Shown piece by piece: positions 1 to 16,910 of a stretch of DNA of 35,645 nt. The stretch spans positions 1 through 35,645 of IMG/VR virus record IMGVR_UViG_3300032087_000913; one strand, written 5' to 3'. Position 1 is the stretch's first letter. Each line of letters begins with the position of its first letter. The notes below the pieces were generated by a model. The model was not told the origin of the DNA. It saw only the letters and a program-made list of their open reading frames with translations, and searched no databases. Source of the DNA: a virus. Position numbers and translations under genes: made by a program.

Positions 1-166
1 CTTGGCTTCCGTAGACTGTAGCAGTCTGTGGATTACCATCCGCATCGTTGTTAGCATCATCAGTTGCTGTTAGTCTCCAATGTACGTTATAAACGACATC
101 ACTATTGCTGTCTTTTGTTGGGTATGTATCGACAGTACTCACATCCCATGCATAATTAATTGCCAT
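1..166 (-). CDS. 5' part of second copy of the 114-aa fibre-associated protein (partial)
   Basis: The window edge cuts this gene, leaving its first 55 codons, read leftwards from ATG at 166. The DNA is about 95% identical to positions 1346-1511, the start of the intact 114-aa gene. The main coding change is at residues 49-50, Ser-Ser there and Ala-Thr here; most other differences are silent. Its Shine-Dalgarno GGAG lies inside the last codons (Lys-Gly-Glu-stop) of the 325-aa fibre gene, so the two are translationally coupled exactly as in the upstream fibre/114-aa pair. Function is unknown. Its fixed place directly after an S74 fibre suggests a fibre-associated or fibre-capping role (inference). 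Confidence 0.85.
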   Translation of the reverse strand, partial: MAINYAWDVSTVDTYPTKDSNSDVVYNVHWRLTATDDANNDADGNPQTATVYGSQ

Positions 167-168
167 TG

Positions 169-1146
169 TTATTCTCCTTTGAGAGTTTGTATTTCAGTTT
201 TTAGTTGTTCTATTTGTTCTTGTTGTTCTTGGATTGCTTTGACAAGTAATGGAGTTATACGACCATAATCCATGCCTTGCATTTCTTCTCCGTCTTTTTC
301 ACCTGTTACTGCATCTGGAAATACCTCTTGTGCTTCGTGTGCTATAAAGCCTTCGCTTGATGTGTCTTTATCTTTCCAATCAAACTTAACTGGATTGAGC
401 TTGTTAAGTCTTTCTAAACCATTTTCTATAGGAGTAATATTTTCTTTTAATCTATAGTCTGATGAGGTGCTAAAAGTTGTGGCAGTATTAGAATATTGAA
501 TGTAGCCAACTCTGCCGCCAGAAGAATTATAGAATTGCAATGCCATATGTGCAGAAGTGTTTGGTGCTAGGAATGATATTCCGTTTTTACCAGTAGCATG
601 ATGAATTGCAATATGAGAAGAATCTAAGTCTACTGTACCTGCTATCAAAAGATTACCAGAAGAATTAATACGCATTCTTTCTGTGCCATCAGTAGTAGAA
701 CTTGCTCCTGTACCAGTTTTCCAAATATGATTTTGATATGTTCTGTAAGTTAAATCATTAGAATCAGCAGCACCAGTTATAGTTTGATAGCCGTTTTGCC
801 ATTGCAGTGCTGCACCACCAGTTTGTAATAATGTATTTCCAGAAGTATCAATACGCATTGTTTCGCTAGTACCAATTTTCCAAGCATGACTTGCGGCTCT
901 AGTTTCTGAGTTTATATAAACAGCAGCAGTTGGGTCATAGTGCTGTGTTAAATTAGTGTCTGTAGATATTTCAGGAAAGAATTGTATTTGTGAATTTGCA
1001 CCATCACAAATTGCAAATTTAGAGCCTGTAGTTGTGGTATGTCCAATTGCAACATTTTCAGAACTATCAATAGTTATAGCAGTCGCATTAGAATTATCTA
1101 CTATGCCTGTATTAAGCATATTACGTGTTACTTTAGTTGTTGCCAT
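169..1146 (-). CDS. Short tail fibre with C-terminal S74 intramolecular chaperone
   Basis: The protein has 325 residues. Residues 1-225 are Ser/Thr/Gly/Asn-rich beta-type repeats such as MRI(D/N)SSGN, typical of a fibre shaft. Residues 229-305 match the Peptidase_S74 chaperone domain: the motif SDYRLKENI gives the Ser229/Lys234 pair at the +5 spacing used for self-cleavage in endosialidase-type fibres, followed by GFIAHEAQEVFPDAV and PLLVKAIQE. The last 25 residues form a Gln/Glu-rich coiled coil. In this family the domain drives trimer folding and is then released by autoproteolysis. Compared with the 1385-aa fibre upstream it is nearly all shaft end plus chaperone, so it is either a short accessory fibre or a spare C-terminal cassette. 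The gene follows the 114-aa gene by 20 bp and its 3' end carries the ribosome-binding site of the next gene. Confidence 0.88.
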   Translation of the reverse strand: MATTKVTRNMLNTGIVDNSNATAITIDSSENVAIGHTTTTGSKFAICDGANSQIQFFPEISTDTNLTQHYDPTAAVYINSETRAASHAWKIGTSETMRIDTSGNTLLQTGGAALQWQNGYQTITGAADSNDLTYRTYQNHIWKTGTGASSTTDGTERMRINSSGNLLIAGTVDLDSSHIAIHHATGKNGISFLAPNTSAHMALQFYNSSGGRVGYIQYSNTATTFSTSSDYRLKENITPIENGLERLNKLNPVKFDWKDKDTSSEGFIAHEAQEVFPDAVTGEKDGEEMQGMDYGRITPLLVKAIQEQQEQIEQLKTEIQTLKGE

Positions 1147-1166
1147 TGTTAGTTCCTATTAATTTT

Positions 1167-1511
1167 TTAACCGATTTGTTTTGTAACAGATGTTGGTGTT
1201 ATCTTCTCTGCTATCTGAGCATCTAAGCCTGATTTAAGTTCAGTAACTTTCTCTTCAGTCAAAGCTGCTTCAACCCAACCTTGAACGTCAGAGCTTGTTA
1301 AGTCTGCAAAGGCTGTGAAGCTTGAGATATCATCAGTATCTAAACTTTGGCTTCCGTAGACACTTGAAGTCTGTGGATTACCATCCGCATCGTTGTTAGC
1401 ATCATCAGTTGCTGTTAGTCTCCAATGTACGTTATAAACGACATCACTATTACTGTCTTTAGTTGGGTACGTGTCGACAGTACTCACATCCCATGCATAA
1501 TTAATTGCCAT
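1167..1511 (-). CDS. Conserved 114-aa protein, probably fibre-associated
   Basis: The protein is small and acidic (114 residues), starts MAINYAWDVS and carries a Trp-containing core (VYNVHWRLTATD). The second half (ISSFTAFADLTSSDVQGWVEAAL and onward) looks helical. No signal peptide or membrane segment is visible. I cannot place it in a family with a known function; similar small proteins sit beside fibres in marine phages. It begins 3 bp after the 1385-aa fibre, using a GGAG inside that gene's last codons, and precedes the short S74 fibre. A second copy starts at 166. Such positioning suggests a fibre chaperone, cap or adhesin (inference). Confidence 0.85.
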   Translation of the reverse strand: MAINYAWDVSTVDTYPTKDSNSDVVYNVHWRLTATDDANNDADGNPQTSSVYGSQSLDTDDISSFTAFADLTSSDVQGWVEAALTEEKVTELKSGLDAQIAEKITPTSVTKQIG

Positions 1512-1514
1512 TTT

Positions 1515-4500
1515 TTATTCTCCTTCTAAGGTTGTTATTCTTGCTTCTAGTTCTTGTATTGTTTTTACAAGCAACGGAACTAATTTACTGTGGTCTATTC
1601 CTTGATATTCAGGATTGCCTTCACTATCAACTGCATCCTTTTCACCTGAGATAGCTTCTGGAACAATGCTTGCTACTTCGTGTGCTAAGAAACCATCTAT
1701 TGTATTACTAGGATGATTCTTAAAATTAAATCTTGAAGGTTTTAATTGTTTTAATCTTGTGGTTGCATCCCACTCAGTAACTACGTTTTCTTTTAATCTA
1801 TAATCAGAAGAGGTGTTATATCTTACTAGACCTCCGTTTAAGTCTATATCGCCTTGAAAAACGCCATCTAAAGCAAATATAATCATATTATTATTAGTAG
1901 TAACACTATTAGTTTTATTTACTTGAATAACTGCATCGGTAGCTGCCGCAGGGTCTCCAGCTACAGATAGTCTATTACCATTCCAAAAAACACCTGTTGT
2001 GTTAGCTCCTGAGTTTGCAACATCTGTTGTCGTTCCTATGCCTACGTCTCCAGAAGAATTAATACGCATTCTTTCTGTTGCGTTACCTGAAGTTCCTCTA
2101 CTTCCAAATATTAATGAAGTATTAAAATTAGAAGAATAATCACCTAGTGCCTGAACATAAGCACCTAGATAATCAGTACCGCTTGATTCTGTAGAAAATC
2201 CTAATCCCCAAACTTCGTTTTGTGTACCTGCATCTTTGTTAGTAAGTTTTATATAGTTACTATCATTCGCTGTTGAATCTGTTCCAACAGAACTATCTGA
2301 AATTTGTAATTTATTATCTGGTGCTGTGTCTCCTATGCCTACGTTTCCAGAAGAATCAATGCGCATGGCTTCACTAAGAGCATCGGTGCTCGTAACAGAA
2401 GGATGAGTCCAAAAAGCTAAACCTGTTTCATTTGGGTCTGTTCCTGTTTGTACTACTGAAATAGCAGAATGTTTATGGTCTTGATTTGCTGTGTCGGAAT
2501 CACAACTTCCAAAAACTAAAGCAGGTCCATAATTACCATTACCTGATGTTCCATTTCCTCTAATAAAAAGACCAACTCCATCGTAATTGTTATAAGTTGA
2601 ACTAAAGTTACCTGATTCAGGGTCAGTTGTTAATACTGCGTTAGGACTGTTAGTTCCTATACCTACACCAGTACTGTCAATAATCATACGTTCAGTACCA
2701 CCAGTATCAAAACGTATCTTATCTTCGTCAGAGCTTTCTTCTACTTGTATCTTTGTATCACTGTCCGCATCCAACAACAAGTTAGCTGTTGTGCTTGAAG
2801 TTGTAGTTGCTGTAATAGCTTCTACAGCTACACCACTTGGAGGTGCTGTAGAAAATGTAAGAGTTGTACCAGATATACTATAGTTTGATTTGCTTTGATA
2901 AACACCATCAAAATAAACTTGTACGTTGTTCTCATGTACTGGTGCAACCGATAGTGTTAATGTTGTATCACTACCATCACCAGTCATTGTAGCTATTGAG
3001 TTGTTAGAACCACCAACAGTTGTTGTGCTGTGATAGACTGTTATAACTCTGCCACTAGCCGGAGCAGTTGCAAAGGTTAATGTAGTTCCTGAAACTGAGT
3101 AAACATTCTGAGCTTGGAATACACCATCAATAAAGACCATAAGATTATTCTCATCGTCTGCACCTGTGCTTAATGTAAAGGCTGTTGTAGAACCATCACC
3201 TGTGTAGATGTTGGTATCCATGTTTGTGCCTGAACCACCACCGATACTTCCCCATTCATCTGTGTAGCCTTCAAACTTACCGGTTGTTGTATTGTATCTG
3301 AAGTAACCTGCAGCAGGACTTCCCGGTCTTTGTGCTGTAGTTCCAACAGGAACGTGTATAGCATCTGTTAAAGAACCAATGTCTAAACTAACATCTGGAG
3401 TTGCATTACCAATACCTACTCTATTGTTTGTAGAGTCTACTTTAAGTGTAGAAGTATCTACTGTAACGTCACCTGAAACTGTTAAAGAACTTAATGTACC
3501 TACTGAAGTTACGTTAGTCTGTGCTGCTGTAGCTAATGTACCTGTAATAGATGTATTAGCTGTTAATGTAGTAAATGTACCTGCAGCAGGAGTTGTACCA
3601 CCAATAACTGAATTATCAACAGTACCACCTGAAATAGTTAGATTATTATCTACGTAAGCATCTGCAATTGAAGTAGCATTCCATGTTCCTGTAGTTAATG
3701 TACCTACAGCAGTAATCTGAGTTTGTGAAGCATCAACAGAAAGTGAGTGTGCAATACCTTCACCTGAAGTTGCTCCAGTAGATGTTAAACCTGTACCGGC
3801 TGTAACTGTACCTACGTAGTCTCCAGTTGTGTCTGTACCTAAAGCAACTGAGTTAGCTTGTATAGTTGCAACACCAGTATCAGCAATTGTAATATCACCA
3901 CTGACTACATTATCAATCCATTTAGATGTAGCAGTATCATAAAACAATAATGAAGCATCAGCAGGTGTCGTAATATTAACATCTGTAAGTTCTGATAGTT
4001 CATTAGCTGTAGCTACTTGTGAGTCTACATAAGCCTTAACAGATTGTTGTGTAGGTACTAATGTAGCACTATCAGAAGACATATCATCTTCATCAACAAA
4101 TGCTGTAATGGTTATTGTACCATCGCTTAGTGAACCATAGGTTACTGTGCCTGTTGTAGTAATAGCAGATGAACCATTGTCAATAGCACCGAAGCCTGAA
4201 GTAATACTTCCTGCATTTAATGCTCCAACTGTTGTAACATTGCTTAAAGTATCTAAAGCACTTTCAAAATAAGTTTCAAAGTCAGTCAATGCAACTTGGA
4301 CCATAGTGCCACCATCGTTGACAACTACTCTGTCTGCATCGGCTAATGTTGTTAAAGTAGCTGATGTATTACCATCAACTATGTTTAGTTCTGTTGCTGT
4401 TGATGTAACTCCGTCAAGTATGTTGAGTTCTGCTGTTGTAGCTGTTACACCATCTAATAAATTTAATTCGGCTGCTGTAGATGTAACACCATCAAGGATG

Positions 4501-5672
4501 TTTAATTCAGCAGCAGTTGAAGTGATTGCTGTACCATTGAAGTTAATACCATCTAGGTAAGCTACACCATCAACGTATAAGTCTTTCCATTCTTGTGAAG
4601 AACTTCCTAAGTCGTATGTGTTGTCTGTATTAGGAATAATGTTTGAGTTGACATCTGCACCAAAGACTACGTTATCGTCTGCTGCATCACCTAATGTTAA
4701 TGTACCACCATTAAATGTAGTCGTACCAGTAACTGTTAAGTTTCCTCCAACACTAACATTACCTGTAGTTGTAATCGCATCTATGTAACCATGCGACCAG
4801 TAGTTTGATGAATCACCTAAACTATAAGTGCTATCTGCACTTGGTATAAGATTAGAAGCTACATCGGCTGTAACCGTTACTGTGTCTGTAGCAGCATTAC
4901 CAAGTGTAGTATTCCCACTTACTGTTAAGTTTGTGCTAACTGTTGCAGCACCTGTAAGAGCCAGTGTGCTACCATCAAAAGTTAAATTAGAACTGTCTTC
5001 TAGTTCTCCACTTGTACCTGCTAGTACTACACGTCCTGAAGTTAAGTCTCCAATCGCAGCAGTGTCAGCAGATAATGTATCGATGTTGGCTGTTCCATCG
5101 ATGTATAAATCTTTCCATTCTTGGGATGAGCTACCAAGGTCATAAGTATTATCGGTGTTAGGTATAATGTTTGAATTAACGTCAGCACCGAATACTACAT
5201 TATCATCAGCAGCATCACCAAGTGTAAGTGTGCCACCATTAAAAGTTGTTGTTCCTGTTACTGTAAGGTTACCACCAACAGCTACATTGCCTGTTGTGGT
5301 TATTGAATCTATGTATGCATCTTTAAAGTATAGTGAAGATGTTCCTAAATCTACATCACTATCTGTTACGGGTAATAAAGCTCCATCCTGCAGTCTTATT
5401 TGTTCTACTGCTGCAGAAGAAACTTCTACGTAAAAACCCCATCTATTGTTTGTGTCGTCTACGACAATCTTGTTTAAAAAATCTAAGTCACCTATTTGTG
5501 GTATGTTACCACCTTGTCCTGCTGTACCATCGTGTCTGTGTCCAGTAGAACTTGCACTACTTGAACTATAAGCAAACGCATTAACTAACTGATTGTACTC
5601 ATCATTAAATAACGCAGCAGTTATAGTATCCCCATCTGCGAACGAACTTTGTCGTGTGTAAGTTTGTGCCAT
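1515..5672 (-). CDS. Long tail fibre with internal repeats and C-terminal S74 chaperone
   Basis: This is the largest gene in the window (1385 aa) and the likely main receptor-binding fibre. Residues 1-80 are the virion-attachment type N-terminus, with the phage-fibre signature SSTGHRHDGT. Residues 125-193 and 301-369 are two copies of a 69-aa unit differing at only two positions. Residues 387-434 are tandem 13-14-residue LDGVT-type repeats. A pair of DGSTTAFTL/IDGVFQ-type beta domains of about 65 residues follows near the middle. Residues 1289-1370 are an S74 intramolecular chaperone with Ser1289 and Lys1294 in SDYRLKENV, ending in a coiled coil. The protein should trimerise, cleave off its C-terminus and sit on the tail. 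The start at 5672 directly follows the nozzle gene (3 bp gap). A perfect internal promoter at 6304-6332 could raise its expression. Confidence 0.92.
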   Translation of the reverse strand: MAQTYTRQSSFADGDTITAALFNDEYNQLVNAFAYSSSSASSTGHRHDGTAGQGGNIPQIGDLDFLNKIVVDDTNNRWGFYVEVSSAAVEQIRLQDGALLPVTDSDVDLGTSSLYFKDAYIDSITTTGNVAVGGNLTVTGTTTFNGGTLTLGDAADDNVVFGADVNSNIIPNTDNTYDLGSSSQEWKDLYIDGTANIDTLSADTAAIGDLTSGRVVLAGTSGELEDSSNLTFDGSTLALTGAATVSTNLTVSGNTTLGNAATDTVTVTADVASNLIPSADSTYSLGDSSNYWSHGYIDAITTTGNVSVGGNLTVTGTTTFNGGTLTLGDAADDNVVFGADVNSNIIPNTDNTYDLGSSSQEWKDLYVDGVAYLDGINFNGTAITSTAAELNILDGVTSTAAELNLLDGVTATTAELNILDGVTSTATELNIVDGNTSATLTTLADADRVVVNDGGTMVQVALTDFETYFESALDTLSNVTTVGALNAGSITSGFGAIDNGSSAITTTGTVTYGSLSDGTITITAFVDEDDMSSDSATLVPTQQSVKAYVDSQVATANELSELTDVNITTPADASLLFYDTATSKWIDNVVSGDITIADTGVATIQANSVALGTDTTGDYVGTVTAGTGLTSTGATSGEGIAHSLSVDASQTQITAVGTLTTGTWNATSIADAYVDNNLTISGGTVDNSVIGGTTPAAGTFTTLTANTSITGTLATAAQTNVTSVGTLSSLTVSGDVTVDTSTLKVDSTNNRVGIGNATPDVSLDIGSLTDAIHVPVGTTAQRPGSPAAGYFRYNTTTGKFEGYTDEWGSIGGGSGTNMDTNIYTGDGSTTAFTLSTGADDENNLMVFIDGVFQAQNVYSVSGTTLTFATAPASGRVITVYHSTTTVGGSNNSIATMTGDGSDTTLTLSVAPVHENNVQVYFDGVYQSKSNYSISGTTLTFSTAPPSGVAVEAITATTTSSTTANLLLDADSDTKIQVEESSDEDKIRFDTGGTERMIIDSTGVGIGTNSPNAVLTTDPESGNFSSTYNNYDGVGLFIRGNGTSGNGNYGPALVFGSCDSDTANQDHKHSAISVVQTGTDPNETGLAFWTHPSVTSTDALSEAMRIDSSGNVGIGDTAPDNKLQISDSSVGTDSTANDSNYIKLTNKDAGTQNEVWGLGFSTESSGTDYLGAYVQALGDYSSNFNTSLIFGSRGTSGNATERMRINSSGDVGIGTTTDVANSGANTTGVFWNGNRLSVAGDPAAATDAVIQVNKTNSVTTNNNMIIFALDGVFQGDIDLNGGLVRYNTSSDYRLKENVVTEWDATTRLKQLKPSRFNFKNHPSNTIDGFLAHEVASIVPEAISGEKDAVDSEGNPEYQGIDHSKLVPLLVKTIQELEARITTLEGE
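4371..4514 (-). repeat. Tandem 13-14-residue LDGVT repeats in the fibre shaft
   Basis: Residues 387-434 are successive copies of a short unit of the form (S/T)TAAELN(I/L)LDGVT, with small changes between copies. Such short repeats are common in trimeric phage fibre shafts. The codons again vary between copies. Confidence 0.85.
4566..4772 (-). repeat. Fibre repeat unit 2 (residues 301-369)
   Basis: This is the second copy of the 69-residue unit, running from TTTGNVSVGG to DLYVDG. It is nearly identical in protein to 5094-5300 but recoded with different synonymous codons. Each unit probably forms one register of the trimeric beta shaft (inference). Confidence 0.9.
5094..5300 (-). repeat. Fibre repeat unit 1 (residues 125-193)
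   Basis: This segment encodes a 69-residue unit running from TTTGNVAVGG to DLYIDG. The unit at 4566-4772 encodes the same residues except Ala to Ser and Ile to Val. The DNA of the two copies differs at many third codon positions, so they are protein repeats and not recent DNA duplicates. A more distant third unit lies between them (residues 246-299). Confidence 0.9.
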
Positions 5673-5675
5673 TTA

Positions 5676-7283
5676 TTATCTCCTACCTGAAGGTACAAAG
5701 TTTATGTAAAGACCATTAATGGTGTATGGTGCTTTCGTATCTTCACTAATTATTGTAAAATTATTACTGTGTCCACTGCCTTGTAATGCAACTCTAACTA
5801 ATGGACTTTCTGCTCCACCAAATACGTTTGTATTGAATATCGCTTCACCGAATAATGCCGGTGGGTCAATTATTCCTAAATCAAATAATTCTGGTGGTTG
5901 AGGTATATCTGTACTACCATAATCAAATCTAACTTGAACATTAGGCTCTACGACACCTTCTGCACTTGCAGAAACTTTTAAGTAATGTAAAGTCTTTAAT
6001 GTTCCTAAATCTCCATAATCGTAATCTGGAGTTGCATAACGTGCTAAGACTGTAGAACCATCAAAGTCATTACCAGAATCGTGAACATGAACATAACCAT
6101 CAGTATCACCATGATAGTATTGTTCAACACCATTTTGGTCAAAGCCTGAACCTATTTCAGTTACTTCTATTCCTCTTGTTTCTGACCATTGAAATCCATT
6201 AGGTCTTAATGTGCCTATAATACCTCTTTGTGAAGAGTTTTGTATTGTTGTATCGGTATAAAATAATCGATACTGAGATTTTTCTCTTAATACAATACTA
6301 GATATTATATAGCTATTTATGCTTTCTGTCAAGTCCGTAACGAGAGGTTGTATCTCTTTACTAACTGTACCTAGCTCAACGTCACCAATTCTTGCTGTAC
6401 CGGCTACTGTTCTTAATCCATCCGGTGCTAAAAATATTAAGTCACCACCAATCTCTTGAATACTATATCCGCTTAGACAACCTACGTTTTCAGTGATAGG
6501 GTCAATACGAATATTACTACTGTCATTTATATTAACAAGTTTATGTATACTGTTTTCTGCAAAGACTATTAAATCTTCACGGAAACCTTTAATGCCTTCT
6601 ATTTGGTCAGATATAGTTACTGAACCTGCTCCAGTTCCTGTAAAGTTATCAGGGTCATTATAGACACTGTAATAAACTGTACTTAAATTATCTTCAACTC
6701 CTGCAGCTATTAAGTGATGGTCATGTACAGTAATATACTTAACATGCTTTGTGCCTGTAACTGTTATTTCTGCAGCAAAAAATGTTCTTGTTGTAAGAGC
6801 ACCAGTACCTTCCATACGAAAGCTATACAGTTTATTTGCACCATCAGCTATAATTACTTCACCATAATCATAGTCTGGTCCTTCAAATAAAACAAACTGG
6901 CATTGTGCTTGTCCAGTTCTAGCGAGTGTGCTACGTCCTGTAAAGGTTGTGTAGTTATCACCACCAACTGCAACAGAATCTCTATTTATCTGTAACCAAC
7001 TTGTACCTGTATTACTAAAATAAATATTTGTACCGGCTGTTACAATAACTCCATCAGCATATGGAAACACACCAAGGATAGTTGCTGTACCTCCTGTAGG
7101 TTGTACTGCACTACCTCCTCCATACTTAGCAAACCCATTAATACGTCTGTATCCACCTTCTGTAGATACTTCGAAGTTTCTGAGTTCTCTTGCTACACCG
7201 GGAGTTCTTAATAAGTCTATTGAGTTAGCAGACTTAACTAATCCTCCATCACATGCAACTGTATACGGCTGTGATGCTGCCAT
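5676..7283 (-). CDS. Putative tail nozzle / DNA-stabilisation protein
   Basis: The protein has 535 residues and starts MAASQPYTVACDGG, followed by LRNFEVSTEGGYRRINGFAKYGGG. Its body is beta-rich with repeated Gly/Asp turns, for example GVFPYADGVIVTAG, HDHHLIAAGV and DGYVHVHDSGND. This looks like the propeller-like nozzle proteins of short-tailed phages (T7 gp12 or P22 gp10 type), which close the tail tube and hold packaged DNA. It lies between the adaptor and the fibre, where a nozzle gene is expected. I assign it by fold impression and context and not by a diagnostic motif. A perfect sigma70 promoter lies inside the coding sequence. Confidence 0.65.
   Translation of the reverse strand: MAASQPYTVACDGGLVKSANSIDLLRTPGVARELRNFEVSTEGGYRRINGFAKYGGGSAVQPTGGTATILGVFPYADGVIVTAGTNIYFSNTGTSWLQINRDSVAVGGDNYTTFTGRSTLARTGQAQCQFVLFEGPDYDYGEVIIADGANKLYSFRMEGTGALTTRTFFAAEITVTGTKHVKYITVHDHHLIAAGVEDNLSTVYYSVYNDPDNFTGTGAGSVTISDQIEGIKGFREDLIVFAENSIHKLVNINDSSNIRIDPITENVGCLSGYSIQEIGGDLIFLAPDGLRTVAGTARIGDVELGTVSKEIQPLVTDLTESINSYIISSIVLREKSQYRLFYTDTTIQNSSQRGIIGTLRPNGFQWSETRGIEVTEIGSGFDQNGVEQYYHGDTDGYVHVHDSGNDFDGSTVLARYATPDYDYGDLGTLKTLHYLKVSASAEGVVEPNVQVRFDYGSTDIPQPPELFDLGIIDPPALFGEAIFNTNVFGGAESPLVRVALQGSGHSNNFTIISEDTKAPYTINGLYINFVPSGRR
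6304..6332 (-). promoter_or_regulatory. Perfect sigma70-type promoter inside the nozzle gene
   Basis: On the minus strand TTGACA (6332-6327) is followed after exactly 17 nt by TATAAT (6309-6304). Transcription would begin near 6297, inside the 535-aa gene, and run into the 1385-aa fibre gene. It lies in codons for an ordinary protein segment (LTESINSYIISS), so chance is possible. Two other exact promoters in this window make function more likely. Confidence 0.55.
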
Positions 7284-7285
7284 TG

Positions 7286-8199: not shown

Positions 8200-8201
8200 G
8201 T

Positions 8202-8345: not shown

Positions 8346-8503
8346 TTCCGTTCCCCTATTTTTTTAGTTTTTGCAATATAGCTACCAACAACTAAACTGT
8401 CATTGTAACCGGTCATTTCTTTACATTTTTCTTCCTTTTCCTCAATAGACATATAGTAATCTATATTTCCACTTGGTCTAGGATTTCCTTTTAACTGTTC
8501 CAT
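8342..8503 (-). CDS. 53-aa micro-protein after the capsid gene
   Basis: The ORF starts MEQLKGNPRPSGNIDYYM, then a Glu/Lys-rich helix, then a short C-terminal part (SLVVGSYIAKTKKIGERK). It is the first gene after the capsid gene and lies beyond a hairpin, so it may be expressed at a lower level. Its stop overlaps the next start (ATGA). No family recognised; its ribosome-binding site is weak. Confidence 0.7.
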   Translation of the reverse strand: MEQLKGNPRPSGNIDYYMSIEEKEEKCKEMTGYNDSLVVGSYIAKTKKIGERK

Positions 8504-8525
8504 ATTTTATCTCAATAAAAGTAGA

Positions 8526-8541
8526 GGAGCCCGAAGGCTCC
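8526..8541 (-). terminator. UUCG-loop hairpin after the major capsid gene
   Basis: On the minus strand the RNA reads GGAGCC-UUCG-GGCUCC, a 6-bp all-matched stem with the very stable UUCG tetraloop, 15 nt past the capsid stop codon. The following tract (TCTACTTTTATT) is only partly U-rich. This is probably a leaky terminator or an mRNA-end stabiliser that keeps capsid mRNA more abundant than the downstream transcript. Confidence 0.75.
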
Positions 8542-8556
8542 CCCACAGTGACAATA

Positions 8557-9531
8557 TTAGTCAATTCCGTAGAAAGCTGAGACTAATGCTTCACCTCTTA
8601 GTACTTTCGCACCATAAACGTGAAGACCTCTAACTATGTCACCAAACGAACTTGGGTCTCTAAGGACTTCAGTTGAGATGATAGTTTGAGCAGTCGCAGT
8701 AGACGAGATATGACCTGCCAAACATTTACCTGCAGCATTAGTTGTTGCAGCAATGTTATTAGACTTGTACATATCAAATCCTCTTAGTTTTCCACTGGAT
8801 ACTAACCCGTTTCTAATTGAACCTTGACCTGCGTTGAAGTCAACAGATAACAATTTAGAAGAAGCTTGACCTAGTTGCTCGTAGAAGTCAGGACTTGCAA
8901 CGAACCATCTTCCTTCTTCAGGAACATTTTGCTCGTCAAGTAGTCTTGCCATTCTAGCCATAACGTCAATTGGGTCATGTTCACTAGAACCAAAACCTAT
9001 GTCAAGGTTACCTGTTCCGTCAAAAGTACCGGCTGCTAAATCTGTAGCATTGTCAGCACCGAGAACGTGGTCAGGTGAAGAACTTGACACACCAGAGAAC
9101 ATAGTAGCTATAACAGCAGCATCATACGAATCTCTAAGAGCGTAAGCTGCAGAGCTAGAAGCTACTTCTTTGAAGTTGACATGTGACATGTTAGTTTCAA
9201 TATCATCTACGATGAATTTGAAAGCTTTCGCACTATCAACAACCAAAGTAAGTTCTTGGTCTGTTAGTTTTGTTTGTGTAGTATCGCTACCTCTTGTGTA
9301 GTCATACACAGTGATAACGGGTTCTTTTATGATTTTAACTGAGTCTCCGTAAGCAGAAATCTCACCGGCATAGTCGGTGTTCGTAATAGCTTCTACAACC
9401 GAGGCTTTTCTAAAAAAGTTTAAAACCTTTTTAGAGTAAACCGAAGGTAAAAAGAAACTATTAGCCTGTCCACTTACGGAGTTTGCAAAGTTAGCATCAG
9501 TATCAGTACTCGGTTCAAAATATTGAGCCAT
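8557..9531 (-). CDS. Major capsid protein
   Basis: The protein has 324 residues and follows the scaffold gene by 29 bp with a strong GGAG ribosome-binding site. The sequence fits an HK97-fold coat protein: N-terminal arm (residues 1-45), helix and strand region with VYDYTRGSDTTQTKLTDQEL and VDSAKAFKFIVDDIE, a spine-like helical segment with YALRDSYDAAVIATMFSG, and a C-terminal region (FGDIVRGLHVYGAKVL). These segments resemble the coat proteins of T7-like and marine podoviruses. It would form the icosahedral shell. A stable hairpin follows its stop codon. Asp codons followed by C are GAC (Asp-Pro, Asp-His), in line with GATC avoidance in this half of the window. Confidence 0.88.
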   Translation of the reverse strand: MAQYFEPSTDTDANFANSVSGQANSFFLPSVYSKKVLNFFRKASVVEAITNTDYAGEISAYGDSVKIIKEPVITVYDYTRGSDTTQTKLTDQELTLVVDSAKAFKFIVDDIETNMSHVNFKEVASSSAAYALRDSYDAAVIATMFSGVSSSSPDHVLGADNATDLAAGTFDGTGNLDIGFGSSEHDPIDVMARMARLLDEQNVPEEGRWFVASPDFYEQLGQASSKLLSVDFNAGQGSIRNGLVSSGKLRGFDMYKSNNIAATTNAAGKCLAGHISSTATAQTIISTEVLRDPSSFGDIVRGLHVYGAKVLRGEALVSAFYGID

Positions 9532-9560
9532 GATATTACTCCTTTATAGTAGTTATAGTT

Positions 9561-10433: not shown

Positions 10434-10561
10434 TTTCTTTTCTCCTACTCAGGGCTTCGTTTAACAAGGTAGCTGCGTGTGCACTTGCAGGGCTTGTCTT
10501 GTAAAGGTAGCCTTTCGGTTAATATATGATAAAGTGCCTATGCCTAGGGTAGCTTTATCGC
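10434..10561 (-). other. 128-nt intergenic region with a stem-loop
   Basis: This is the only long gap inside the compact late operon. No ORF with a start codon lies here on the minus strand. Just after the 222-aa stop, GATAAAG (10528-10534) pairs with CTTTATC (10553-10559), and CCTA pairs with TAGG inside it, giving a 32-nt stem-loop. There is no U-tract, so it is more likely a processing or stability element than a terminator. The rest of the gap may be the scaffold leader. Confidence 0.6.
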
Positions 10562-11230
10562 TTAGCTCCGAACGTAGGGTCTAGTAGAAAGCATAGACTT
10601 TTTGAGTTCTTCATCGACTAAGTCAGATTGCTCTTGCATTGCTGCTTGAGAACCAACTGTCTCTTTAGTAACTCTAATGTCCTGTTCCACTGGCTGTTTT
10701 TCAACAGGCATAGTAACAGTTTCTTCCTCTTCTATTAGCCCACCTTCTTGAGCTTGTAGTCTTTCATCTGCTTCACGTTCTGCTTCTTTCATCATTGACA
10801 TTAAATTGTCAGCTCCGATTTCTTCAGTCGCTTTAGCAGTAAAGACAAACTCACCATCCGATAGCCTTGCCGGTATCGAATCGGACCTACCAGTTCCGGG
10901 ACCTTCTACAGTTCCAGAACCTGTAAATTCTGTTGCGCTCTCGACTACTTGGTCGAATATTTCACTTAGTCTGTCGTCTTTCTCGAGAGCATCTATTAAA
11001 TAATTTCTATCTTGATTAGACAATGTTTCTTGTACAACATAGTCTACGTAATCTTCTTCCATCTGTTCGTCAGGAACCATAGGTGCGTTTATCTCTTCAA
11101 CTCCTCCGAGCATCATTTCCATTTGAGTATCTACGTCACCGCCTTCTTGGAAAACACCTCTACCTTTAAGTACATCAGCTCTAGTAACTTTACCATCACC
11201 TGTTAAATCTGGAAAATCTTTTTTTGCCAT
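10562..11230 (-). CDS. Structural protein with dockerin/EF-hand-like calcium loop
   Basis: The protein has 222 residues and is acidic. Residues 8-19 (DLTGDGKVTRAD) match a 12-residue EF-hand/dockerin calcium loop with ligands at positions 1, 3, 5 and 12. Residues around 108-140 carry GPGTGRSDSIPARLSDGEFV, a motif seen in many phage virion-associated proteins. The C-terminal third is helical and Glu/Gln-rich. It lies between the portal and scaffold and could be a minor head protein. It starts 1 bp after the 76-aa stop with an AGAGGA ribosome-binding site. Calcium binding is predicted only from the motif. Confidence 0.7.
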   Translation of the reverse strand: MAKKDFPDLTGDGKVTRADVLKGRGVFQEGGDVDTQMEMMLGGVEEINAPMVPDEQMEEDYVDYVVQETLSNQDRNYLIDALEKDDRLSEIFDQVVESATEFTGSGTVEGPGTGRSDSIPARLSDGEFVFTAKATEEIGADNLMSMMKEAEREADERLQAQEGGLIEEEETVTMPVEKQPVEQDIRVTKETVGSQAAMQEQSDLVDEELKKSMLSTRPYVRS

Positions 11231-11231
11231 T

Positions 11232-11462
11232 TTAATCCTCTATTCTATTCAGGGCTTCCTTCACCTGTTCCGCCAACTGCTCTAGGTGTACCAGAGAACG
11301 TAGTTTCCCCTGCAACCGGAACATTTCCGATTCCGATGTTGCCACCACCAGTGCCTGTTGGTCCAAGTTCTTGAGGTGATTGAGGTGCTCCTTCAGGGCT
11401 TCCCATACCTCCGGGTTGTGGACTACCGGTGTTAGCTTCTTCGCCTGTTGTTTGGTTAGCAT
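11232..11462 (-). CDS. 76-aa protein overprinted on the portal 3' end
   Basis: This helical protein starts MLTKQQAKKLTPVVHNPEVW and continues with amphipathic helices (EMFRLQGKLRSLVHLEQLAE). The NPEVWEALKEHL and RLQGKL elements resemble small proteins encoded near portal and terminase genes of other phages. It has its own ribosome-binding site (AGGA, 7 nt before ATG) and its stop is 1 bp from the next start. It lies in another frame over the last 72 codons of the portal, where the portal is Gly/Pro/Ser-rich and probably disordered. This pattern indicates a genuine overlapping gene. Function is unknown; a head-completion role is possible. Confidence 0.75.
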   Translation of the reverse strand: MLTKQQAKKLTPVVHNPEVWEALKEHLNHLKNLDQQALVVATSESEMFRLQGKLRSLVHLEQLAEQVKEALNRIED

Positions 11463-13428
11463 TTTGCATTCCTATTATCTGTGCCATGATAGCTGCTTCT
11501 TCAGGGTCATTGAGTATTTCATCAGGGTCTAAATCTAAGCTATAGGCTAATTCACTTACGAGTTTAGAAATTTTAACGAAAGGAGCTATAGCCGGACTTT
11601 GTGCAGTTTGTAAGAACATAGTCAACCTTTGGCTTCGTACTTCTTTTTGCATCAAGCTATTTGTTCCTGTAGCTCTAACTTCTAAATCACCTTTAACATC
11701 AAGACCACCTTCAAAGAATTGCATGTTCCATTGGAAATACGATTCTCCTAAAGGTTTCAATAAAAAATCATCAAGATTCTTTATCACAGTCTTAATATTT
11801 AAACTAGATGCCCCTAATAACATGGACATACCAGAGGCTGTCCTTGTCATACTTTGTACACCCGTTTGCCCGTGAGAGTAACTAGGTATGCCTGTTTGCT
11901 CGTCTGCAAGTTGTCTAAACTTGTCAAACATCATCATATTTTCGGGAGCAGTGTTGGGGAACTTCAAGCCATATATTGACTGTCCGGGCATCCCTGCCTG
12001 TCTTCTAAAGACTTTCCCCGGATAGACCTCCATTGACTGCCCACCGACTAAAGCTGATTCATCTACGTCAAAAACAAGAGAACCTGCTAAAGCTAGATTA
12101 TCAATTGCCATTCTAGCATGACCATTCATAATCTGTTGAGAATCATCCATGTTCTCAGCAACTCCAATACCAAAGAAGTTATAAGGATTTCTTTCGTATG
12201 GAAAAGCGTTGTATGGTATGCGGTATGGAGTAAATGGATTAACAACAGCTCTTAGCAATTTATCTCCACATACCCATGCATTTATTTGTACTTCGTCTAG
12301 GTCGTCAACAGAATCATCTAACTCTATTCCAACCTCTCTAGCATATTCAGCATCCATGATGCCCCAATATTCTAGAACCTCAAAGTTGCTTCCGTAATCA
12401 TCTTCTCTAGCATCGTCTTTGAGTTGACTTTCAAAATCTTTTTCTACGTAGTTTGCTCCCATTTGGATACAACTACGGATTGCTTCTTCGTCAAAGTAAG
12501 GCATATTTCTTAATTGCCTTAATTGACTTTTGTTCATTTTGTGTCTATGGATTACATATTCACATTCTTCTATGTTTGTAGCTGCAGGGTCTGGATAAAA
12601 ATCCCAACAACTAACAAACTCAATTCGAGGGACTCTAACCTCTAAAGGATTATAATTTCTCTCGCCCCCTTCATCTGACCACTTGTGTAACTTTTTGTTA
12701 AAGTTAAAAGGTCCCTTTACGATTCCTGTTCCTAATAAGGCTGCTTCTAGCAAAGCATTTCGTATTTCAGAAGAACCGTTTGATTCTTCGATTTGGTCAT
12801 GTATAAGTTTTTCCATTCGTCTTGCAGCTTTTTCTGCAGGACTTATTTCAGGTATTTCTGGTATAGCACTTAAACCTTCAGCTAGTATACCATCAGCTTT
12901 TTGTTCTATACTTTCAAGTGTCGGGTAAGTAGAACCGGCAGGTAATGTACGACCATCTCCTTCAAAACCTACATCAAATGGGTCACCTACAACATTACCT
13001 AAGTTATCTTCGTTTATTTCTAAACTAGGTGTAGGATTTTGTGGGTCTAGATATGCGTTTTCTTTTTCACCTTCAGGTAATTTAGTTTCTGCAATACCTA
13101 TAGGAAACTTTCCTGTTCCAAAAATAACATCAACTAATTGACCAAAAGCAGCTAGTACTTTTGTTTTAGTTATCTTAACAAAGACTCTAGACTTTTCAGA
13201 GTCTCTAAACTTGACTGATTTTTTATAGAGTCCTCTGTAGTTTTCGTAGGCTCTTAGCCATCTTCTTTCATCAGTCTCTCTAGAATCTTCAGCTTTAGCA
13301 TAGCGACTATTAATAATACCAACTAAGTTAAGCTTCTGGTCTAATTCTAAATCTAGAGTTTTTCCAGACTCACCTTCAACATCCGTGTAGATGTTGTCAG
13401 CATTTAAAAATGTATTTTCTTCTGCCAT
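11245..13428 (-). CDS. Portal protein
   Basis: The protein has 727 residues, close to the P22 portal (725 aa) and much longer than T7 gp8. An N-terminal helical region (INSRYAKAEDSRETDERRW) is followed by the wing/stem segments; AFPYERNPYNFFGIGVAENM and GHARMAIDNLALAGSLVF are typical of the portal core, and TRTASGMSMLLGASSLNIK belongs to the stem region. The last 72 residues are Gly/Pro/Ser/Thr-rich and overlap the 76-aa gene. It forms the 12-subunit ring through which terminase packages DNA. Its own ribosome-binding site is weak, in an A/T-rich junction after the 95-aa gene. Confidence 0.9.
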   Translation of the reverse strand: MAEENTFLNADNIYTDVEGESGKTLDLELDQKLNLVGIINSRYAKAEDSRETDERRWLRAYENYRGLYKKSVKFRDSEKSRVFVKITKTKVLAAFGQLVDVIFGTGKFPIGIAETKLPEGEKENAYLDPQNPTPSLEINEDNLGNVVGDPFDVGFEGDGRTLPAGSTYPTLESIEQKADGILAEGLSAIPEIPEISPAEKAARRMEKLIHDQIEESNGSSEIRNALLEAALLGTGIVKGPFNFNKKLHKWSDEGGERNYNPLEVRVPRIEFVSCWDFYPDPAATNIEECEYVIHRHKMNKSQLRQLRNMPYFDEEAIRSCIQMGANYVEKDFESQLKDDAREDDYGSNFEVLEYWGIMDAEYAREVGIELDDSVDDLDEVQINAWVCGDKLLRAVVNPFTPYRIPYNAFPYERNPYNFFGIGVAENMDDSQQIMNGHARMAIDNLALAGSLVFDVDESALVGGQSMEVYPGKVFRRQAGMPGQSIYGLKFPNTAPENMMMFDKFRQLADEQTGIPSYSHGQTGVQSMTRTASGMSMLLGASSLNIKTVIKNLDDFLLKPLGESYFQWNMQFFEGGLDVKGDLEVRATGTNSLMQKEVRSQRLTMFLQTAQSPAIAPFVKISKLVSELAYSLDLDPDEILNDPEEAAIMAQIIGMQNANQTTGEEANTGSPQPGGMGSPEGAPQSPQELGPTGTGGGNIGIGNVPVAGETTFSGTPRAVGGTGEGSPE

Positions 13429-13434
13429 ATAATT

Positions 13435-13722
13435 TTAAAATCTTTTTAAAAAATTAATGCCATATTGAGGCTTTTGTTTTTTACTCTTACTAACCCCAAT
13501 AGAAAAACCTTTCCCTAAGTTTTTATTTACATTATATGTAGTTGAAGATTTACCTCCAAATTTATTTAATTGTGCTCCAACTGAAAATCCTTTAGGTAAT
13601 TGTTTATTTGCACCAAGATTAAATGAACCTTTTTGAATATTGAGATTTGTATTTAAACTATCAAAATTTTTAAAATAATTTAAACTGCCACCATTTTTAA
13701 ATTGTAATCTTTTATTTTTCAT
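13435..13722 (-). CDS. 95-aa basic Asn/Lys/Gly-rich protein
   Basis: The protein reads MKNKRLQFKNGGSLNYFKNF and onward and contains repeated strands ending in Gly-Phe-Ser-(V/I)-Gly (KGFSVGAQL, KGFSIGVSK). This resembles a small beta-barrel or hairpin-repeat protein. It is much richer in A/T, Asn, Lys and Phe than the terminase and portal genes on each side, which suggests a later insertion. It sits between terL (2 bp) and the portal (6 bp). No family recognised. Confidence 0.7.
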   Translation of the reverse strand: MKNKRLQFKNGGSLNYFKNFDSLNTNLNIQKGSFNLGANKQLPKGFSVGAQLNKFGGKSSTTYNVNKNLGKGFSIGVSKSKKQKPQYGINFLKRF

Positions 13723-13724
13723 TT

Positions 13725-15518
13725 TTAATATCCAAAGTCTGAGTCAGCAGGTTTAAACATATCTCGTTTAAAACCTCGCATTCGCTCTAATGGATTTTCC
13801 ATTCGAGGTCTACTCATAATCATATAACGCAATGCATCATATGCGTGGTCTGAAGCGTGAGTATCCACATCTTCAGGATTATTTTTGGACAGAGGAATAC
13901 TTTGCAATTCTCTTATCAAGTTAGGACACGTATTAAATATCTGTAACTTCGGTCTGCCACTTTCTCTTGTTTTTAAATATTCGTGTATTTGAATTTTACC
14001 TTGTATTCTATTTTTATCTGCCCTTCTAAGCTTATGTCCGGCTTTAAGTAAAGCTTCACCTACAGTTGGACCAGTCGTACCTGTGTTAGCCCATGCTGCA
14101 GTATCTAATACACCATTTACGGAGAAAGGGTCTTCTATCTCCATATCGGTTATTATAGCCCCTAATTCTTCTCCTGTCAAGCCTTTTCTATACAATTCGC
14201 GATAAATAATCAAAGTATTGTCGTTCATATCGATAATTCCCCACAAACAACAGCTTTCTGAAGCATATCCGTAGTCAATTCCTTTTACTCTTTCCCAAGC
14301 AACCGGAAGCTCAAATGGAGTGATAACATGAACAGTTGGGTCAAATTCTACAAATGCAGCTCCCTCTGCAACATCCCAATTCCCTTCTAAGAGTTGTTTA
14401 CGTTGTAGAGGTGGTAAGGATTTTAGCATCTGCTCATAGATACCATCCTTTGCTAAGTATGGATTGTCTATTAACTTAGCCGGGATAAACTTTCGTGTTA
14501 AACCATCAGCACCTAAAAAGCTTTGATTAGATTCGTTTGGTTCTATGTAACGTTTTTTAACCCAATGAGAACCAACCCCTCCCGGGTTTGCAGTGCAACG
14601 AAGATATGTTTTTATTTCAGGGTCGGTTGTTCTTAAACGAGAGGCTAAATAGTTCCATGAGAACTCTGTAGGTAGGTGTGTAATTTCATCAAAACCAATC
14701 CATGAATAGGCTTGTCCTTGATATCTGTATACATCAGCATCTCGCTCAAGAAAACCAAACTCCACTTTTGCACCTGAAGGGAAGTTCCAAAGTTTTTCTA
14801 CTTCTCTAAACTTAGCACCGGGAAATGCTTGTGGATAAAGCTCTCTGGATTTATCTATCATCTCTCGGAGTTCTGGCATCGACCTTCTTAATATTAAAGC
14901 TCGGTGTGCCGGACGATGTGCGTAGCGTAGTGGGTCAACTATCATTGCATAGCTTTTACCACCACCGGCAGCACCGCCATATAAAACATCTTTTTCGTCT
15001 GCTGCTAAGAATTCTGTTTGCGGTCCCTCATTAGGATGAAAGATTACTTTCGCATCTTTTAAAACCTCTTGAACAGAAGGAGCGACTTTTTCTAAATCAC
15101 TATCGATAACAACAGTATTCTTTGTAGGCTCTGTTGCTTTTTTAATTATTTCTTTTTCTTCTTTTACTTTCTTTTCTTTAGCTGCAAGCTTGGCTTTGGC
15201 TTTTTGTATTTCTTTTTCTTTCTTTGCTAAAGCTCTTTTACGTTGTGTAGCCACAGTAAAACGACTCCTTGGCTCTGGAGGAGTTACTTTCTTGATAATC
15301 TTGGATAGTCCTACGTGACTGATTTTTCTATCTGCTTCTAGCGAGAGTTGCTCTGCTGCTTCACGTAGAGAGTATTTCTTGTCTTGAACCAAAGCAATAT
15401 ATTTGAGAAGAAGCTCTTGTTGCTTTGGAATTGGCTTAAGATAGCCTTTGATTTCGGATTGCTCGTAACCAAACGGTATGGTTACACCTTTCTTTTTAAT
15501 ATAGCCTTCTTGGGGCAT
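13725..15518 (-). CDS. terL: Terminase large subunit with an N-terminal DNA-binding extension
   Basis: This is the DNA-packaging motor (597 aa). The ATPase domain has Walker A GGAAGGGKS (181-189), Walker B WIGFDEI (273-279, catalytic Glu278) and coupling motif CTANPGG (308-314). The nuclease domain has Asp415 (GIDYG), Asp472 (VLDTAAW) and Asp557/Asp561 (SDHAYDALRY), the usual acidic cluster. Ahead of these is an unusual extension of about 160 residues. Residues 48-76 (YSLREAAEQLSLEADRKISH and onward) look like a helix-turn-helix, and residues 90-130 are a Lys/Glu/Ala coiled coil. The gene starts with a TAATG overlap with the 50-aa gene. The extension may assist the small subunit in DNA recognition (inference). 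Confidence 0.95.
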   Translation of the reverse strand: MPQEGYIKKKGVTIPFGYEQSEIKGYLKPIPKQQELLLKYIALVQDKKYSLREAAEQLSLEADRKISHVGLSKIIKKVTPPEPRSRFTVATQRKRALAKKEKEIQKAKAKLAAKEKKVKEEKEIIKKATEPTKNTVVIDSDLEKVAPSVQEVLKDAKVIFHPNEGPQTEFLAADEKDVLYGGAAGGGKSYAMIVDPLRYAHRPAHRALILRRSMPELREMIDKSRELYPQAFPGAKFREVEKLWNFPSGAKVEFGFLERDADVYRYQGQAYSWIGFDEITHLPTEFSWNYLASRLRTTDPEIKTYLRCTANPGGVGSHWVKKRYIEPNESNQSFLGADGLTRKFIPAKLIDNPYLAKDGIYEQMLKSLPPLQRKQLLEGNWDVAEGAAFVEFDPTVHVITPFELPVAWERVKGIDYGYASESCCLWGIIDMNDNTLIIYRELYRKGLTGEELGAIITDMEIEDPFSVNGVLDTAAWANTGTTGPTVGEALLKAGHKLRRADKNRIQGKIQIHEYLKTRESGRPKLQIFNTCPNLIRELQSIPLSKNNPEDVDTHASDHAYDALRYMIMSRPRMENPLERMRGFKRDMFKPADSDFGY

Positions 15519-15670
15519 TATTCTTTATCTTTGTTAAATATTCTATCCCAATTCTTTTCGAATTGCTTTTGGTCTCGAATACCTTTACCCCTCATAGATA
15601 AACGTCCCTTTTGCTTTGCAAGGGCTTTAAACTTTACTGGATGTTGGTCAGTGCCAATTTGCCTACCCAT
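15518..15670 (-). CDS. 50-aa basic protein between terS and terL
   Basis: The protein starts MGRQIGTDQHPVKFKALAKQ, is Lys/Arg/Gln-rich, and ends NWDRIFNKDKE. Its stop overlaps the terL start (TAATG) and its ATG directly follows the 96-aa stop, so it is well tied into the operon. No domain recognised. It is one of four basic mini-proteins in a row here. Confidence 0.75.
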   Translation of the reverse strand: MGRQIGTDQHPVKFKALAKQKGRLSMRGKGIRDQKQFEKNWDRIFNKDKE

Positions 15671-15961
15671 TTACCACTTAACCTTGTCAGCCCAATATGC
15701 TGCTGACATTTTTCCTTTTGCTATGTTCTTAGCATGACGTGCTTTGAAAGATTTACGTTTAGCTTTCATTCTAGCTGATTCACCTGCTTTGGGCTTTCCG
15801 GCTGTACTGGCTCCTTGTTCACCAAAACGAATAGTCTTAACCTTGTCACCAACTTTAGCAACAACAACATGAGACTTCTTAGGATGGCTAGGAGTACGTT
15901 TAGGTTTATTATAACCAGATACACCGGCTCTAGCAAGTCTTGGGTCTTTTTTCTTAGGCAT
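15671..15961 (-). CDS. 96-aa conserved basic protein
   Basis: The protein starts MPKKKDPRLARAGVSGYNKP, includes KRTPSHPKKSHVVVAKVGDK, and ends SFKARHAKNIAKGKMSAAYW plus six residues. Such a sequence is recurrent in marine phages (a DUF-type family; I am not sure of the number). It is strongly basic with no catalytic motif. The TPSHP-KKSHVVVA segment and the aromatic C-terminus look like a folded core with basic arms, perhaps nucleic-acid binding (inference). It overlaps the 80-aa stop by one base. Confidence 0.8.
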   Translation of the reverse strand: MPKKKDPRLARAGVSGYNKPKRTPSHPKKSHVVVAKVGDKVKTIRFGEQGASTAGKPKAGESARMKAKRKSFKARHAKNIAKGKMSAAYWADKVKW

Positions 15962-16203
15962 TATCTTTTCTTTCCTTTATGTAGTCCATGCTTCGCATGT
16001 TGCTTACCTTTCTTTGTAGCTTCTCTTTTCTTTTTATTAGCTGCTGCTAGTTTCTTTCTTCCTGCTGCAGTTGATTTAAGTTTCTTTATAGTAGCTGCAG
16101 GTGCGTAGACTTCTCCAGTCTCTGAAGACTTTTTACCACTAGGAGTTCTCCATTTTTGTTTAGTCCACTTCTTTAAAGACTTCTGAGACTTTTTAAGTGC
16201 CAT
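15961..16203 (-). CDS. 80-aa histone-tail-like Lys-rich protein
   Basis: About 24 of 80 residues are Lys, with many Ala, as in TAAGRKKLAAANKKKREA and GKQHAKHGLHKGKKR. The N-terminal part (SLKKWTKQKWRT) followed by SGKKSSETGEVYAPAATIKK is a signature shared by small proteins of marine phages and some large algal viruses. This charge points to DNA or RNA binding, possibly DNA compaction or packaging help (inference). It overlaps its neighbours by one base on each side. Confidence 0.8.
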   Translation of the reverse strand: MALKKSQKSLKKWTKQKWRTPSGKKSSETGEVYAPAATIKKLKSTAAGRKKLAAANKKKREATKKGKQHAKHGLHKGKKR

Positions 16204-16400
16204 TACTTATAACCTCCACCTTTAGCCTTATACTCTTTAGCCAACATCTGTGCCTTTCTAGCACTCCACTGTCCGGGCTTACCACCTTTACTTCCTGCTT
16301 TGATCTTATTAAAAAGATTCTTACGCATAGTAGGCTTGGTATAGTTACCGGCTTTATTGACTGTAGATTTCTTTTTAGGTGCTGCTTTCTTTCTTGGCAT
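16203..16400 (-). CDS. 65-aa conserved basic protein
   Basis: The sequence has a basic start (MPRKKAAPKKKSTVNKAG), then the conserved core NYTKPTMRKNLFNKIKAG and GKPGQWSARKAQMLAKEYKA, ending GGGYK. I recognise this core from marine phages and other environmental viruses as a protein of unknown function. The first GATC of the window lies inside this gene (about 16301). It follows terS with a one-base overlap. Confidence 0.8.
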   Translation of the reverse strand: MPRKKAAPKKKSTVNKAGNYTKPTMRKNLFNKIKAGSKGGKPGQWSARKAQMLAKEYKAKGGGYK

Positions 16401-16903: not shown

Positions 16904-16910
16904 AATCATA

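Follow-up and report, generated by a model that had tools for sequence, protein, structure and literature searches.

Complete loss of GATC from part of a mosaic marine podovirus fragment, and its coupling across phages to a small gene that probably encodes a GATC-cutting enzyme

Introduction

Bacteriophage T7 is without GATC sites, or nearly so, and chloroviruses encode site-specific endonucleases that are thought to degrade host DNA. In a survey of restriction-site avoidance, GATC was among the most consistently avoided phage sites and was under-represented in 46 of 46 phages whose hosts encode GATC-cutting enzymes (Rusinov et al. 2018, PMC6286503). For SAR11, the part of PMC9516812 that bears on the point reports no restriction-modification (R-M) system. 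The prevailing view that restriction systems are lacking in SAR11 hosts heightens the interest of a word missing from phages.

The DNA analyzed here, hereafter the window, is the 35,645-nucleotide virus record IMGVR_UViG_3300032087_000913. Judged by its gene order and the hallmark genes present, the window comes from a marine podovirus of HMO-2011 type, as a fragment of 35.6 kb. It resembles the described HMO-2011-type podoviruses (PMC9038755) in gene order, in its capsid and in TerL, the last of which reaches up to 68% to isolates. Unlike them, it is an uncultured relative, and its polymerase is ~51% identical to those of HTVC103P, HTVC104P and HTVC115P, the Pelagibacter phages of 54-55 kb that are its closest isolates.

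Results

GATC is absent from the left part of the window

The left part of the window carries, on the minus strand, genes for tail fibre, tail, capsid, portal and TerL. The right part encodes a primase/helicase, a DNA polymerase, a Cas4-type exonuclease and a ribonucleotide reductase. The features used below are:

1..16301, no strand: GATC-free part of the late (structural) module; 0 GATC, 45.4 expected in coding sequence
16302..35645, no strand: GATC-bearing part, with the 65-aa gene and TerS and the early/replication module, to the contig end; 46 sites
8557..9531, minus strand: major capsid protein, left lineage
11245..13428, minus strand: portal protein, left lineage; 96-98% (amino acid) to GATC-free G024 and G025, 79% to GATC-bearing G022
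13725..15518, minus strand: terminase large subunit (TerL), left lineage
15950..16083, no strand: junction zone, at the start of the 80-aa gene and near-identical in both parent lineages, from 100-bp tiles and alignment
15961..16203, minus strand: gene for an 80-aa basic protein; junction inside the gene or at its end
16203..16400, minus strand: 65-aa gene with the first GATC (16302); one base different in GATC-free relatives
16400..17089, minus strand: probable terminase small subunit (TerS) of the GATC-bearing lineage; shows which parent gave the right part
21232..21600, plus strand: PDDEXK_5-like nuclease, below the Pfam cut-off
26774..28504, plus strand: DNA polymerase, right lineage; 100% to G018, 91% to G022
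28491..29036, plus strand: HNH endonuclease in the slot between polymerase and exonuclease, which holds PHROG 13596 in many GATC-free relatives
29037..29951, plus strand: Cas4-type exonuclease, downstream of the slot

The first-pass annotation had reported no GATC in positions 1-16300, about 38 sites in the replication part and four in each of two flanking regions. A direct count agrees exactly: there is no GATC in 1-16301 and there are 46 in 16302-35447, namely 4 in 16.3-16.9 kb (16302, 16600, 16807 and 16823), 38 between, and 4 in 34.1-35.6 kb (34769, 34985, 35420 and 35447). The maximum-likelihood change-point lies at 16300 (0 vs 46 GATC; log-likelihood gain 28.1). The annotation spoke of the structural half of the genome; the region is indeed structural, but since complete relatives measure 50-55 kb and the window 35.6 kb, the window is a fragment, and 1-16.3 kb represents a portion of the late module, not half of a complete genome.

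As a null model, codons were shuffled among synonymous positions in 1000 shuffles. For the 15.3 kb of left coding sequence this gave 45.4 expected GATC (sd 4.8, minimum 32) against 0 observed, and for the 16.3 kb of right coding sequence 50.2 against 41. Neither of the outcomes that the annotation had named as counter-evidence, several sites in 1-16300 or a null that often falls to zero, was seen. The left part avoids GATC by synonymous change. Aspartate before C is encoded by GAC 35 times and by GAT never on the left, as the annotation had noticed for the capsid gene, and by GAC 8 times and GAT 28 times on the right; in the left part, serine after xGA uses no codons but AGY. When all 4-mers, 5-mers, 6-base palindromes and gapped palindromes were compared, GATC was the strongest left depletion (z -9.5), and the largest left-right contrast among the tested words was for GATC and its extension GATCA. 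Base composition is similar in the two parts. Chance, codon usage or the amino-acid composition of structural genes might be suspected, since only a single word of four bases is concerned and the proteins encoded on the left are of other kinds than those on the right. However, the shuffles never fell below 32, GATC stands out among the words compared, and GATC-bearing relatives carry it throughout their structural modules; we regard such an explanation as ruled out for practical purposes. The earlier proposal that the left module was long under strong selection against the word is supported.

The two parts of the window have different relatives

In 500-bp tiles, the GATC-free G024 is the closest relative almost throughout ~6-16 kb (87-99% nucleotide identity), with G025, also GATC-free, often second. 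Left of 6 kb, in the tail-fibre region, there are only weaker relatives, both GATC-free and GATC-bearing, and the origin of that region is therefore less sure. From 16.0 kb rightward the closest are G018 (99-100%), L096 and G022, all of which carry GATC. Tiles of 100 bp and alignment place an abrupt change of nearest relatives at 15.95-16.03 kb, at most 0.35 kb from the first GATC, at 16302, which differs from the GATC-free relatives by a single base inside the site. By its nearest relatives, then, the window is a mosaic of a GATC-free left lineage and a GATC-bearing right lineage. The annotation had proposed separate histories for the two parts and a possible change of phylogeny near the 80-aa gene; both are borne out, the second by a switch in or at the end of that gene. 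Its reading of the 16.3-kb boundary as a recombination junction stands as far as the nearby switch of relatives goes, while the join rests on one contig.

The 80 TerS relatives divide by identity: above ~58%, each one with at least 1 kb of late side carries GATC there, and at or below 57% none does. None of these other TerS-containing contigs joins both GATC states, and when the junction pattern was searched for exactly, no viral contig other than the window proved to contain it. The window could thus be an assembly chimera, with sequence from two co-occurring phages fused in the conserved start of the 80-aa gene. The same reading is favored by the end of the 100%-identical G018 at ~16028 and of L212 nearby, which suggests that assemblies tend to break there. 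Yet G018 comes from another sample and runs from the right into the 80-aa gene without any difference, and the window lacks the nuclease gene described below, as a viable recombinant must. Natural exchange is also supported by G017, a second GATC mosaic with its changes at other places (18 sites in 14.2-23.5 kb, GATC-free elsewhere). On balance we consider an assembly chimera unlikely, though deserving of real weight. Were the window a chimera, the GATC contrast between lineages would be real and the recombinant would not.

Over 9.8 kb of the left part, the window and G024 differ at 543 positions. Given that 1.64% of random substitutions would create a GATC, ~4.5 gains would be expected on the window side if the word had been neutral throughout. 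None is seen, which probably makes the junction recent compared with the window-G024 split.

GATC loss is coupled to PHROG 13596

There are no GATC sites in G001, G003, G026, G027, G028, HTVC103P, HTVC104P and HTVC115P and one each in G029 and G032, against an expected range of 123-164; HMO-2011 has 0 of 170 expected. Five unrelated Autographiviridae pelagiphages (HTVC109P, 168P, 031P, 142P and Eistla) also have none. Near-normal counts occur in the same groups (G007 147, G011 143, G031 169, HTVC033P 155 and CRP-738 177). SAR11 host DNA is rich in the word, with 1345 GATC in 592 kb vs 1369 expected.

All ORFs were clustered, and each cluster was tested for co-occurrence with GATC absence. The strongest of all gene-by-palindrome associations, over all clusters and the 4-base and gapped 5-base palindromes, joined GATC to a cluster identified as PHROG 13596, an uncharacterised family of ~120-150 aa; its profile matches three members in relatives over nearly the whole protein (E values of 9e-43, 3e-42 and 7e-21). 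The cluster is present in 11 of 11 near-complete GATC-free HMO-type genomes and 5 of 5 GATC-free Autographiviridae genomes, and in none of the GATC-bearing ones (0/6 complete, 0/10 partial). GATC-free to GATC-bearing genomes number 19:0 with the gene and 6:15 without it, most of the six free non-carriers being fragments (Fisher 1.3e-6, a nominal value from a scan of many pairs that ignores relatedness). This near-perfect coupling, like the absence of GATC and the switch of relatives, is a computed result. On a polymerase tree, with gene-less incomplete contigs left out, GATC state and gene each need 4 changes; the 2 supported independent contrasts both agree and are too few for a sign test. 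Beyond that tree, further lineages are represented by XacN1 and C72C1/C75C1.

In most carriers the gene directly follows that for DNA polymerase; it lies elsewhere in HTVC103P, HTVC104P, HTVC115P and HMO-2011. The gene could not be present in the window, given its 46 GATC, and a six-frame search indeed gave no match to it (best score 4.5 bits). The partial GATC-free contigs G010 and G013 have no copy in their sequenced part. Seven GATC-bearing loci with family matches (L092, L093, L094, L099 and L109-L111), among the window's relatives, proved to be distant paralogs, not true exceptions: they score ~40 bits vs at least 82, and PSALLTT replaces KPSGI. As a judgment made after seeing them, these paralogs presumably have another specificity. 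No copy of the family turned up when 385 genomes from the class of the hosts were searched, at low sensitivity, nor in plasmids with one member as query, and a sequence search of the PDB returned nothing relevant. A search of the open-access literature brought up neither GATC loss in pelagiphages nor any function of PHROG 13596.

Further palindromes, among them GGCC, CCWGG and GCGC, are also lost from the same phages, in combinations that vary, and the gene-by-palindrome scan found no phage gene linked to these losses. Candidate genes for the lost GGNCC, GANTC and CGNCG were rejected as lineage-wide gene sets or weaker matches.

The coupling holds outside the original search and on shared hosts

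As the association came from a search, it was retested on sequences outside it. Eighty viral contigs retrieved by PHROG 13596 alone, a few of them previously included, hold 6 GATC in 799,070 bp vs 2360 expected. An unrelated carrier, the Xanthomonas jumbo phage XacN1, has 0 in 384,670 bp vs 1434 expected, with most other 4-base palindromes near expectation. Other carriers agree: C75C1 (0/108 expected), KT997847 (0/77), CRP-143 (0/133), C72C1 and HTVC011P (0/74 and 0/40 in 20 kb each), and the pelagiphages HTVC019P, HTVC105P, HTVC201P and Eyrgjafa (0 in 12 kb each). The non-carriers CRP-118 (182/207), HTVC010P (74/79 in 20 kb) and Atu_ph07 (48/63 in 15 kb) retain the word. HTVC008M, which is absent from the carriers found, has a reduced count of 10/54 expected in 20 kb.

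Phages of a single strain differ completely. On Roseobacter strain FZCC0023, carrier CRP-143 has 0 GATC and non-carrier CRP-118 has 182; on HTCC1062, HTVC031P, Eistla and HTVC011P have 0, HTVC010P has 74/79 and HTVC033P 155/189. Such opposite states on one host strain indicate that the strain is not the deciding factor, and the coupling spans SAR11, SAR116, Roseobacter and Xanthomonas hosts.

PHROG 13596 resembles a nuclease in motifs and position

An ExK motif is invariant in the family, and TGN and one more Glu are conserved, a pattern as in PD-(D/E)xK nucleases; K37 and E52 are among the conserved residues. Members include the HTVC109P gene at 12178-12570, HMO-2011 gp19 and XacN1 ORF419. 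One member matches Pfam PDDEXK_5 at E 0.038, below the cut-off, and AlphaFold models of members are poor. Frequent neighbors are a polymerase and an exonuclease. In non-carriers the same slot holds other nucleases: HNH in the window, PDDEXK_5 in G005, G008, G011, G021, G022 and others, and GIY-YIG in G007 and G034; the GIY-YIG slot nuclease also occurs in the GATC-free G010. PHROG 13596 has no profile similarity to the slot PDDEXK_5 proteins. Relatives of the window's own PDDEXK_5-like nuclease fill the polymerase slot in several other phages.

No D12 (Dam-type) methylase was found in 47 phage records, and a phage methylase of this type protecting the GATC-bearing relatives was accordingly rejected. 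In C75C1 and C72C1 a C5 methylase gene lies next to PHROG 13596 or ~1.3 kb from it. On the evidence of the D12 search, PHROG 13596 has no partner methylase of the same specificity, such as the endonuclease of a Type II R-M system would have. Based on its motifs and its coupling to the missing word, the small gene probably encodes a GATC-cutting enzyme.

Discussion

The first-pass annotation attributed the loss to GATC-directed host restriction or to mismatch-repair or methylation pressure, and neither cause is supported by the comparison of phages and hosts. A restriction account would have MboI/DpnII/Sau3AI enzymes, or methyl-dependent cleavage, purge the left module, with the right module coming from phages of unrestricted hosts and PHROG 13596 a mere marker. 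Site avoidance in phages of R-M hosts is well documented (PMC6286503), and the loss of GGCC, CCWGG and GCGC, for which no phage gene was found, fits it too. On the other side, 0 of 347 Pelagibacterales genomes had a DpnII-family enzyme over the cut-off, in a search of that family alone, and we reject host DpnII restriction on this count; SAR11 is described without R-M in the relevant part of PMC9516812. It would further have to accommodate opposite GATC states on the same host strain that match presence of the gene, and a coupling that holds across four kinds of host. We therefore judge restriction improbable as the cause, and the pressure on GATC was probably something other than host restriction. 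Host mismatch repair, or Dam-like methylation, selecting against GATC in the left module is more doubtful by far. Its strict Dam/MutH form is a gammaproteobacterial trait. Strong D12 methylases occur in ~10 of 347 Pelagibacterales genomes, and the one D12-type methylase read in context (L483) is solitary. The precedent is phiX174, whose lack of GATC the pertinent part of PMC5014478 links to mismatch repair; that process would leave unexplained both the coupling to a phage gene and the complete differences, following PHROG 13596, among phages of one strain.

We propose instead that PHROG 13596 is an endonuclease specific for GATC, probably PD-(D/E)xK-like, with no methylase to accompany it. Its targets would be host DNA (~2950 GATC per 1.3 Mb of SAR11) or that of rival phages, and the carrier would be immune only through having no GATC; the benefit might be nucleotide salvage or the killing of rivals. 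Its place beside an exonuclease and near ribonucleotide reductase leads us to favor host DNA degradation as the role of the candidate nuclease. An HMO-2011-like lineage would have purged every GATC from its genome and donated the late module of the window, from the left end to ~15.95-16.03 kb. A sister lineage that kept GATC would have donated the 65-aa gene, TerS and the early module; in this right-hand lineage, without PHROG 13596, GATC would be neutral. It seems quite likely that PHROG 13596 is such an unrecognised methylase-free GATC endonuclease, with carriers immune by purge and half-purged genomes arising by gene loss and recombination. That the window in particular joins a late module from a purged PHROG 13596 lineage, with its putative endonuclease, to a remainder from a GATC-keeping sister appears reasonably likely.

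This offers a testable cause for a word missing from the genomes of some of the sea's most numerous viruses, and predicts a function and an exact specificity for a widespread uncharacterised phage protein. If correct, loss of the site, not its modification, can protect a phage from its own cutter, and this would apply to carriers as different as abundant SAR11 phages and a Xanthomonas phage of 385 kb. The exchange of genes between phages with and without the site should then be limited, and a half-purged mosaic would show where that barrier was crossed after gene loss. Half-purged genomes such as the window would thus record loss of the gene and then recombination with non-carriers.

Among known systems, the chloroviruses are similar in having virus-encoded site-specific endonucleases. 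They protect themselves by methylation (PMC7248222), whereas here the search for a Dam-type methylase was negative and it is the site that has disappeared. The PhiPA3 intron endonuclease, as described in the pertinent part of PMC11620839, is likewise a phage nuclease that harms a co-infecting rival, but it is a rare-cutting homing enzyme acting on one gene, while the PHROG 13596 candidate would cut a 4-base site everywhere. The portion of PMC5014478 on phiX174 concerns, as here, a phage with no or nearly no GATC, and explains the loss by Dam-directed mismatch repair in E. coli. The GANTC depletion treated in the relevant part of PMC9516812 also divides pelagiphages into clades by palindrome loss, with no R-M in SAR11; there, however, the word is GANTC and the proposed cause is host methylation or past restriction. 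Restriction-site avoidance as surveyed by Rusinov et al. (2018, PMC6286503) shares with our case the genome-wide removal of a short palindrome by synonymous change; unlike it, the absence seen here is total, extends to genomes of up to 385 kb, and tracks a phage gene, not the host strain.

A second phage mosaic for GATC

The window is not the only mosaic with respect to GATC. The phage contig G017 is a second: 18 GATC sites lie within positions 14160-23505 of the contig, and the remaining 28 kb contain none (loci L189-L190).

A nuclease exchange site and DNA methylases

The features referred to here are as follows.

Window 28491-29036, nuclease slot between the DNA polymerase and exonuclease genes
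L621 16131-17923, C5 DNA methylase of phage C75C1
L646 11382-13978, C5 DNA methylase of phage C72C1
Window 2-195 and 1347-1540, 194-nt direct repeat
Window 18726-18754, 19139-19167 and 19325-19353, repeated leader ATAAGGAGGGCTTATG

The same slot is found in L092, L171, L174, L178, L182, L183 and L530. Across phages it is occupied by PHROG 13596 (the candidate GATC endonuclease), a distant paralog of PHROG 13596, or an HNH, PDDEXK_5 or GIY-YIG nuclease. The interval between polymerase and exonuclease is an exchange site for nucleases.

In phages C75C1 and C72C1, a gene for a C5 DNA methylase adjoins the PHROG 13596 gene or lies approximately 1.3 kb from it; GATC is nonetheless absent from both. 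Among hosts, a D12-type DNA methylase was found in approximately 10 of 347 Pelagibacterales genomes (L483; loci L488-L496), and the one examined in its gene context is solitary, flanked by groEL and a typA-like GTPase gene. Two DNA methylase-like genes lie side by side in the SAR11 genome G384 (L487), and this pair is possibly part of a restriction system.

The two copies of the direct repeat share 89% identity and are close to tail-fibre genes, and the repeated leader is positioned upstream of three small early genes.

Other rare words and missing palindromes

Shuffling of synonymous codons provided the expected word counts for the window. GACGC does not occur in either half (13 and 9 expected), and CCAGC has a single copy in the whole window (1 versus 20 and 0 versus 12 expected by half). 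These asymmetric words also appear to be avoided. AATT, AAAT and AAAA are far below expectation in both halves.

Word counts revealed no GGCC or CCWGG in either half of the window and almost no GCGC. The set of missing palindromes (GGCC, CCWGG, GCGC, CCGG, ACGT, GANTC) is individual to each phage compared and switches among close relatives. GANTC occurs 0-4 times in most Autographiviridae pelagiphages (L205, L207, L209, L210, L648-L652), an exception being the GATC-free HTVC109P with 60. This near-loss in pelagiphages has already been described, as GANTC depletion (PMC9516812).
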